From: Campylobacter insulaenigrae NCTC 12927 | GTDB taxonomy: Bacteria; Campylobacterota; Campylobacteria; Campylobacterales; Campylobacteraceae | Length of the DNA: 64,000 nucleotides | Direction: 5' to 3' | Assembly: GCF_000816185.1 (NCBI RefSeq) | Contig: NZ_CP007770.1 | Span: forward strand, 1,240,001-1,304,000 | Shown: positions 14,758-16,849 of the stretch, piece by piece | Layout of the letters: every line of letters starts with the position of its first letter | Position numbering within the stretch: position 1 is the stretch's first letter | Made by a program: the position numbers and the translations under genes | The notes under the pieces: generated by a model | What the model saw: the letters and a program-made list of their open reading frames with translations, nothing else | Databases searched by the model: none | What the model was told of the DNA's origin: nothing

Positions 14758-15345
14758 CTACCATTGTATTCCACTATTATCAATAGCTTGAGAATAATAC
14801 TTATAAAGTTCGTCAACACGCTTTTTTAAAAAATCAAACCGAGACACACTAACAAAATTAGAATATATAGTGCCTCCACCATTTGACGTATATACAAATG
14901 TTTTGTGTGCTAATATGTATTGCTCGTAAGCATCTCGTAATTTGATCCAAGCTTTTTGTTCTTCTAAAAATGCAGCTTTATTTTTTTCATTTAATCTATT
15001 TTTATATAAAGAATAATATTTATTAAGTAATCTATCATATTTCTGATAACCATAAAAATAAGCTGAATTTATTCCTTGTGTAGAAGATTCATAATCTTGC
15101 AAAAGTTCAATTGCATAATCAATTTTATAACAATCTAATATATATTCTTTTAAAATCTCGCTAGTATTTTGTGCGTTTAGTTCTTCTAATTTCAGCTTAA
15201 TACCTTTTTCATACTCTTTTTGAATTATTTCAATTTTTTCTTTAGGCAACCAATTGATTTCTGTTTCCGATAAATCCATAGCAGCACTAAAATTAAAAAA
15301 CAAACTACTCATGATAAAAATTAATAATTTTTTATATTTATTCAT
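14758..15345 (-). CDS. Secreted LprI-like (DUF1311) protein
   Basis: This 195-residue protein has a clear signal peptide, MNKYKKLLIFIMSSLFFNFS, with probable cleavage after SAA. The C-terminal half has the DUF1311/lysozyme-inhibitor LprI pattern: a tetra-helical YDRLLNKYYSLY stretch, an AFLEEQKAWIKLRDAYE core, and a GGTIYSNF turn. Family members are periplasmic or surface proteins. One, in Mycobacterium, inhibits host lysozyme, but most are uncharacterised. It is upstream of and close to the YqaA-like gene. No catalytic residues are evident. Confidence 0.7.
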   Translation of the reverse strand: MNKYKKLLIFIMSSLFFNFSAAMDLSETEINWLPKEKIEIIQKEYEKGIKLKLEELNAQNTSEILKEYILDCYKIDYAIELLQDYESSTQGINSAYFYGYQKYDRLLNKYYSLYKNRLNEKNKAAFLEEQKAWIKLRDAYEQYILAHKTFVYTSNGGGTIYSNFVSVSRFDFLKKRVDELYKYYSQAIDNSGIQW

Positions 15346-15415
15346 ACCAAATATATCCTTGTTTCAAAATACTTGTATTATATTATTACTCACTTAATTG
15401 TTAGTTATTTTATTA

Positions 15416-15421
15416 TATAAT
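15416..15421 (+). promoter_or_regulatory. Candidate promoter for the trpB leader
   Basis: A TATAAT box lies 31 bases upstream of a 36-codon leader ORF and about 250 bases upstream of trpB. The expected start site is near 15428, giving a transcribed leader of about 245 bases before trpB. Confidence 0.5.
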
Positions 15422-15452
15422 AAAGGCTCATTTTAGATTTTAAAGGAGTTTT

Positions 15453-15563
15453 ATGTTATATATTTTAAATATACAAACATTTAAGATATTTGAAAATTTT
15501 AATTATTCTAAAAACTTTATTAATTCAAATTTTATATTTTCTCAAACTCCTTCTTGGCGTTAA
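15453..15563 (+). CDS. 36-residue small ORF in the trpB leader, possible leader peptide
   Basis: The ATG follows a strong TAAAGGAG ribosome site with good spacing. The peptide begins MLYILNIQTFKIF, is rich in Asn, Phe and Ile, and ends SQTPSWR-stop. Its only Trp is the penultimate residue. A small GGC/GCC hairpin spans the stop codon. Known trp leader peptides often end in Trp-Trp-Arg or similar, so it could sense tryptophan, but one Trp codon is few for classical attenuation. No other gene is seen between 15346 and 15673. Confidence 0.5.
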   Translation: MLYILNIQTFKIFENFNYSKNFINSNFIFSQTPSWR

Positions 15564-15673
15564 GCCTACTTCTATAATCTTTAAAATTATTTTTCTCATT
15601 ATTTTTAATTTATTATCAAAATTTAGTTGGTCATTTTGATCTAAAAAATTATATTTAATATCAAGGAATACTT

Positions 15674-16849
15674 ATGAAACAATACTATGGAAATTTTGGT
15701 GGACAATTTGTACCAGATAGTGTAAAAATAGCATTAAATGAAGTGGAATTAGCTTTTTTAAAATTCAAACAAGATAAAGATTTTAATCAAGAACTCAAAC
15801 AACTTTTAAAAACATATGTTGGAAGACCTACACCTTTATATTATGCTAGCAATTTAAGCAAAATTTACGGACATGAAATTTACTTAAAAAGAGAAGATTT
15901 AACTCATACAGGAGCACATAAAATCAATAATGCTCTCGCGCAAGCTTTAATGGCTAAAAAAATGAATAAAACAAAAATCATAGCAGAAACTGGGGCTGGG
16001 CAACACGGAGTTGCTACAGCCACTGCAGCAGCACTTTTAGGACTTGAATGTGAAATTTTTATGGGCGCTATAGATGTTAAAAGGCAAGCACTAAATGTTT
16101 ACAAAATGGAACTTTTAGGAGCTAAAGTTCATGCTATAGAAAGTGGTAGTAAAACACTCAGCGATGCAGTTGATGGAGCTTTAGATTTTTGGGTTAAAAA
16201 TATGAAAAATGTATTTTATGTTGTAGGTAGTGCTGTTGGACCTTATCCCTATCCACAAATTGTCACGCACTTTCAAAGTATAATAGGAAAAGAGTGTAAA
16301 GCTCAACTTAAAAAAATAAACAAAAATGTAGATTATATTATTGCTGCAGCTGGCGGTGGAAGTAATGCTGCTGGAATTTTTTATGAATTTTTAAAAGATG
16401 AAAAAATAAAACTTATAGGCGTAGAAGCAGCAGGATTGGGTCAGGATACTCCTTATCATGCAGCAACTCTTACCAAAGGAAAGACAGGAATCATACACGG
16501 AATGAAAACTAAAGTATTACAAAATGAAAAAGGTGAAATTTCACATACATTTAGCATTTCTGCTGGACTTGACTATCCTGGAATTGGTCCATTACATGCA
16601 CATTTGCAAGAGACCAAAAGAGCGAGTTATCATGCTGTAAGTGATGATGAATGTATTAACGCTTTAAAATTACTATGCAAACACGAAGGTATTATCCCAG
16701 CTATAGAAAGTTCTCATGCTTTAGCTTTTTTGGAAAAATTATGTCCTACTTTAACCAAAAAAAGTGTCATTGTTGTTAATCTTTCTGGAAGAGGTGATAA
16801 AGATATGCAAAGCATTTACGAATATAAAAAAAGAGAAATTTATGGTTAA
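15674..16849 (+). CDS. trpB: Tryptophan synthase beta chain
   Basis: This 391-residue protein of the TrpB1 type joins indole and serine to form tryptophan using PLP. Lys83 in HTGAHKINN is the Schiff-base residue, and GGGSNAAG binds the phosphate. The start MKQYYGNFGGQFVP is standard. It stands alone: no trpA, trpC, trpD, trpE or trpF flanks it, and uvrA converges. If no trpA exists elsewhere, the enzyme would serve indole salvage. A leader ORF and candidate promoter lie upstream. Confidence 0.96.
   Translation: MKQYYGNFGGQFVPDSVKIALNEVELAFLKFKQDKDFNQELKQLLKTYVGRPTPLYYASNLSKIYGHEIYLKREDLTHTGAHKINNALAQALMAKKMNKTKIIAETGAGQHGVATATAAALLGLECEIFMGAIDVKRQALNVYKMELLGAKVHAIESGSKTLSDAVDGALDFWVKNMKNVFYVVGSAVGPYPYPQIVTHFQSIIGKECKAQLKKINKNVDYIIAAAGGGSNAAGIFYEFLKDEKIKLIGVEAAGLGQDTPYHAATLTKGKTGIIHGMKTKVLQNEKGEISHTFSISAGLDYPGIGPLHAHLQETKRASYHAVSDDECINALKLLCKHEGIIPAIESSHALAFLEKLCPTLTKKSVIVVNLSGRGDKDMQSIYEYKKREIYG

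Follow-up and report, generated by a model that had tools for sequence, protein, structure and literature searches.

The window analysed here, a 64,000-nucleotide stretch of the genome of Campylobacter insulaenigrae NCTC 12927, carries an orphan trpB gene for the tryptophan synthase beta chain (391 aa; positions 15674 to 16849, + strand). The gene is intact; its product scores 610 bits against the NCBIfam model TIGR00263, whose equivalog cut-off is 392 bits, and its closest solved chain is 5ey5. Between relatives, trpB shows dN/dS values of 0.06–0.11, which speaks for strong purifying selection, and the gene is therefore in use. An earlier note on this DNA had described trpB as standing without any other trp gene and had proposed a search of the genome for trpA. 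Our genome-wide searches for trpA, trpC, trpD, trpE and trpF bear this description out: the trpA, trpF and trpD families gave zero matches in the complete 1.465 Mb genome, the sole match to the trpC model is partial and reaches 51 bits versus about 263–296 bits for true TrpC proteins of relatives, and the best match to the trpE query (97 bits) resembles a paralogue found in all genomes, whereas true TrpE proteins score about 400–900 bits. All five genes are absent from this genome. Most simply, the remaining enzyme would produce tryptophan out of serine and scavenged indole.

A short open reading frame of the TrpL type, MLYILNIQTFKIFENFNYSKNFINSNFIFSQTPSWR*, lies upstream of trpB on the same strand (15453 to 15563, +). 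It comprises 36 codons, ends in Ser-Trp-Arg-stop (SWR*), and its stop codon is followed at a distance of 110 nt by the trpB start codon (ATG, 15674). The sole Trp codon of this leader, UGG (15555–15557), is the penultimate one, and UGG makes up only 0.37% of the codons in the window. A Shine-Dalgarno sequence, AAAGGAG (15442 to 15448, +), precedes the leader, and a TATAAT hexamer (15416 to 15421, +) is, judged by its sequence, the putative −10 box of a leader-trpB transcript. We thus located all of the elements that had been proposed from the letters alone: the TATAAT box, a strong ribosome site and a 36-codon reading frame with a single, penultimate Trp codon about 110 bases before trpB.

Conservation of the leader among lari-type genomes

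Our data set comprised 49 genomes of the genus, 15 of which carry an orphan trpB of the kind found in the window; we refer to the clade formed by these 15 genomes and relatives such as G027 as lari-type, since the C. lari group named in the earlier note agrees, in our judgement, with the relatives that we found. A comparison across relatives, as the earlier note had advised, revealed that the leader is kept in all 15 orphan-trpB genomes, each time with its own AAGGA-type Shine-Dalgarno sequence, a Ser-Trp-Arg-stop end and a distance of 94–130 nt to trpB. It has 23 codons in 13 genomes, and 36 codons in the window and in G026. These two also have a further sequence in common: window positions 14758–15345 (−), located between a dedA-like gene and the leader, encode a 195-aa protein without NCBIfam match, and a sequence resembling this segment lies upstream of the leader of G026. 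A TAnaAT-type box (TATAAT, TAGAAT or TACAAT) is situated 37–43 nt 5′ of the leader ATG in 15/15 lari-type genomes, and no conserved box of this type was found between leader and trpB in the same 15 genomes.

The end of the leader lies in a 15-base block, CTTGGCGYTAAGCCT, that is identical in 14 of the 15 genomes and differs in the fifteenth by one synonymous CGT-to-CGC change. In the window, this core (CTTGGCGTTAAGCCT; 15553 to 15567, +) comprises the UGG codon, the Arg codon CGU, the stop codon UAA and the adjacent GCCU. The reversed core pattern, used as a control, yielded zero matches, no second copy with at most one mismatch is present elsewhere in the window genome, and only three further sites within one mismatch of the pattern were detected, in G039 and G044. 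The recurrence of the ending and the block in 15/15 genomes, the zero matches to the backwards pattern and the rarity of UGG together amount to more than chance; a chance reading frame is ruled out by the conservation in 15 genomes. Based on these comparisons, the leader is a real and conserved element, and very probably a regulatory one.

In the lari-type relative G027, both trpB and the leader are gone and no trace of the leader is left; at the corresponding place between the dedA-like gene and uvrA, genes that we read as dsbB-like are found (L128, 240–2010). These data bear on the idea that the leader is a relic, or that it acts in reinitiation or mRNA stability, without any sensing of tryptophan. 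The pathway formerly controlled is indeed gone, and the leader-to-trpB distance may be within reach of reinitiation, but a relic would not keep the UGG-CGY-UAA core in all 15 genomes when the other residues of the peptide change, nor would one expect this core to be lost along with trpB, as happened in G027. We consider such an explanation improbable.

Relationship to the TrpL leaders that precede trpE

In relatives possessing the full operon, the genes are arranged in the order trpE-GD-F-B-A; a leader precedes trpE and none precedes trpB. Leaders ending in Trp-Arg (WR) plus one residue were found upstream of trpE in 19 of the 27 trpE-bearing genomes of the genus, a count in which G041 is represented by the 30-codon reading frame with a proper Shine-Dalgarno sequence and in which G044 was not assessable. 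These leaders comprise 21–30 codons, lie 40–70 nt before trpE, possess one Trp codon each and end, for example, in LRSWRF, FRYWRF, LKLWRL or LYLWRS. The Trp codon occupies position 22 in the majority of these leaders, as it does in the 23-codon lari-type leaders. With the core removed, the best alignment of these lari-type 23-mers to the 24-mer trpE leaders is the unshifted one, and 169 of 5000 permutations were as good (0.034); the 36-codon leaders of the window and of G026 align with the other leaders at the last residues only. The signal in the non-core alignment lends modest support to a common descent of the lari-type and trpE leaders.

The trpE leader of the genus is the TrpL of C. jejuni, a 24-aa peptide encoded upstream of trpEDFBA (cj0345–0349) (PMC3847290, PMC11955535). 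TrpL was predicted from dRNA-seq data; it has a single C-terminal Trp codon and its RNA extends only a little beyond the stop codon (PMC3847290), and initiation peaks at this leader are seen in Ribo-seq experiments with retapamulin (PMC11955535). In the dRNA-seq study, TrpL was confined to C. jejuni, C. coli and C. doylei (PMC3847290). Our literature search found no paper that treats trpB or the biosynthesis of tryptophan in connection with C. lari.

In our phylogenetic tree, the lari-type TrpB proteins form a branch of their own next to those encoded in the trp operons of the genus (91/63 support). This sister relationship leaves a foreign origin of trpB unsupported, and on the sequence evidence the gene is a vertically inherited Campylobacter trpB. 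Given this position of the TrpB branch, the gene and its leader would most simply descend from an ancestral operon through loss of the intervening and following genes. The option, raised in the earlier note, of a trp-operon leader that survived the loss of its operon is hence well supported, both by the similar leader before trpE in relatives and by the vertical inheritance of trpB.

Leaders of this kind are not found before every trpE gene. None precedes trpE in G012, G045, G048, G031 and G032; G030 (L114) has a leader-like reading frame, MYKSQSPHTNSLFSLFLWPFF, with a Trp residue and no Arg after it, and that of G039 (L110) lacks Trp and is perhaps decayed. In other genera of the family, no such leader was present in the 22 trpE upstream regions (out of 23 taken) that had enough sequence. 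Most of these upstream regions contain a TATAAT-like box near trpE, and one of the other-genus loci (L136) has a 12-codon reading frame ending in Trp that lacks a Shine-Dalgarno sequence and is far from trpE. Two peculiarities concern trpB itself: trpF and trpB of Campylobacter sp. US33a form a single 592-codon frame for a fused TrpF-TrpB protein (L039, 5395–7173), and the trpB gene of G006 (C1, 71606–72776) has in-frame stops though trpE and trpA match well, so that this strain may be a tryptophan auxotroph or its assembly may contain an error.

Constraint on codons and on the peptide

The Arg codon that follows the Trp codon is CGY in all 34 WR leaders (15 lari-type and 19 trpE-type), a count that informs on the third base since these leaders were gathered by TGGCG; leaders recovered in a search without this filter likewise all have CGY. 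Among the Arg codons of the window, CGY accounts for 23% and AGA is the main codon. The conserved part of the peptide is confined to its last two or three residues. The comparison of synonymous with non-synonymous changes that had been suggested for the leader yielded, outside the core of two lari-type pairs, dN 0.39 with dS 0.08 and dN 0.33 with dS 0.45, values that are rough for such short reading frames; this part drifts freely, while trpB is constrained as described above.

These findings weaken the proposal of the earlier note that the leader is a nascent-peptide sensor for tryptophan or indole. In such a TnaC-like device, the TrpL chain in the ribosomal tunnel would bind free tryptophan or indole and arrest translation at the Trp-Arg-stop end. 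The position of the motif at the stop codon and the retention of Arg as well as Trp in all 34 WR leaders are compatible with it, and the Arg conservation in particular leaves room for a sensor of this kind. However, the remainder of the peptide changes at about the same rate at non-synonymous as at synonymous sites, the length of the leader varies from 21 to 36 codons, and the invariable use of CGY where AGA is the main codon suggests that the RNA, and not the residue alone, is under constraint. We therefore regard a nascent-peptide sensor as very unlikely; the conservation of UGG-CGY speaks more for a constraint on the position of a stalled ribosome and on the RNA.

RNA structure and the output of the switch

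A GGC/GCC hairpin over the stop codon, noticed already when the locus was first read, can form: minimum free energy and alignment folds give a 3-bp hairpin, GGC-GUUAA-GCC (15556 to 15566, +), with its arms at 15556–15558 and 15564–15566. All of its pairs are invariant, so that covariation cannot be scored and cannot back it. A short A+U-rich hairpin, GGUCA-UUU-UGAUC (15629 to 15641, +), was recognised by eye in alignment and fold within the spacer; it can form with 4–7 bp in every lari-type leader, with exchanges among A-U, G-U and G-C pairs. We found zero terminator-like sites when searching for an intrinsic terminator in positions 15340–15720. Rfam gave no match above chance for the leader region, and a known RNA family was dismissed on this ground.

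RNAalifold detected in the lari-type leaders an excess of structure over shuffled columns, which stems from close relatives and from pairs that are mostly invariant; in the trpE leaders, it found no consensus structure above shuffled columns. In the lari-type prediction, UUUCUU before the UGG codon pairs with the Shine-Dalgarno sequence of trpB, AAGGAA; in the window, the latter (15663 to 15668, +) may pair with UUCUU just 5′ of the Trp codon. This pairing would permit a translational attenuation, a variant of the tRNA-Trp-sensing leader discussed below, in which the pyrimidine-rich codons up to and including UGG close the trpB ribosome site unless a ribosome is stalled there. In nine lari-type leaders, the window around the Trp codon ranks 3–18 of about 150–200 windows as a partner of the Shine-Dalgarno sequence, but all pairs are invariant and shuffled windows are as good in 4–33% of cases. 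Moreover, the predicted cost of opening the trpB Shine-Dalgarno sequence in lari-type leaders is about the same with or without a ribosome on the Trp codon, and ribosome-dependent opening was rejected as a candidate. We judge translational attenuation at trpB to be possible but doubtful. For a sub-group of trpE leaders (L111, L112 and L113, from G003, G041 and G040), the predicted opening cost at the trpE Shine-Dalgarno sequence falls from 6–8 to about 2–5 kcal/mol once a ribosome occupies the leader at its Trp codon or stop, a modelling hint of translational attenuation at trpE.

The spacers 3′ of the leaders are U-rich and G-poor, with a T-A skew of 0.22–0.50 in the lari-type and mostly 0.25–0.7 in the trpE-type, compared with a mean of 0.05 (sd 0.18) in window controls. 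These spacers, and the C. jejuni TrpL RNA that ends behind the stop codon, favour premature transcription termination behind the leader as the switch, even though we saw no terminator; we give this output about an even chance and consider it likelier than a closing of the ribosome site.

Discussion

Taken together, our data make it probable that the leader is a TrpL gene that was inherited from the trp operon of the genus, was retained at trpB, and senses a shortage of tRNA-Trp. From its observed conservation, the core motif shared with the leaders before trpE and its loss along with trpB, we infer the following circuit. Transcription would start about 25 nt 5′ of the leader. If charged tRNA-Trp runs short, translation would halt with the lone UGG codon in the ribosomal A site, two codons ahead of the stop, and the stalled ribosome would cover the conserved stop region. 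This stall would spare the downstream RNA from termination, or the trpB ribosome site from closing; TrpB would then be made and would join scavenged indole to serine to yield tryptophan. With ample tryptophan, the ribosome would instead terminate and leave, and trpB expression would fall. Codon sensing through ribosome stalling suits a gene of biosynthesis, and it agrees with our finding that the genus has no TrpR repressor; trpB is probably still switched by the tryptophan supply. Against this tRNA-Trp-sensing leader stand its one Trp codon, the terminator that we did not find, the trpE leaders devoid of a common fold, the reliance of the lari-type structure signal on closely related sequences, the modest homology outside the core and the 36-mers that do not align beyond their ends.

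The lari-type leader resembles C. jejuni TrpL in being a short reading frame with a ribosome site and a promoter (by sequence), co-oriented upstream of a trp gene, and in its one Trp codon, which forms part of a WR motif close to the C-terminus (15/15 lari-type, 19 trpE-type). It differs in preceding an orphan trpB rather than trpE, in its stop directly after WR (one codon fewer), in its spacer of 94–130 rather than 40–70 nt and its 36 codons in the window species, and in the conserved GCC after the stop and the spacer hairpin. In the trpL leader of E. coli, two Trp codons stand in tandem and a G+C-rich terminator/antiterminator is present. Like the leaders studied here, this trp operon leader peptide has Trp succeeded by Arg close to its C-terminal end; however, every leader studied here has one Trp codon, and neither tandem Trp codons nor a recognisable terminator/antiterminator were found in the lari-type leader. 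The earlier argument that one Trp codon speaks against classical attenuation has less force than it seems to have: all WR leaders before trpE, where they head a complete biosynthetic operon, also have one. The terminator of a classical attenuator is, however, missing. TnaC, another leader peptide whose Trp residue and stop codon region are control points, depends on residues distributed over its chain and switches on the breakdown of tryptophan when tryptophan is abundant. In contrast, conserved residues along the chain are not found in the lari-type leader, in which the last ones only are kept and dN is not clearly below dS in the two pairs, and its target is a synthetic gene.

With our analysis, TrpL, so far on record for C. 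jejuni, C. coli and C. doylei alone, is extended to a clade that lacks the tryptophan pathway. As this case indicates, a regulatory leader can survive the loss of its operon and stay tied to the sole remaining gene. That an operon attenuator with one Trp codon, no terminator and almost no constraint on its peptide was re-used, once the pathway had collapsed, to place a lone indole-salvage enzyme under the control of tryptophan starvation, through pairing between the Trp-codon region and the trpB ribosome site in this clade, is a rather unlikely scenario. The 34 natural variants of a leader with one Trp codon make single-codon control without a visible terminator directly testable. Finally, the retention of trpB and its leader suggests that indole made by neighbours is part of what C. 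lari-type bacteria live on.
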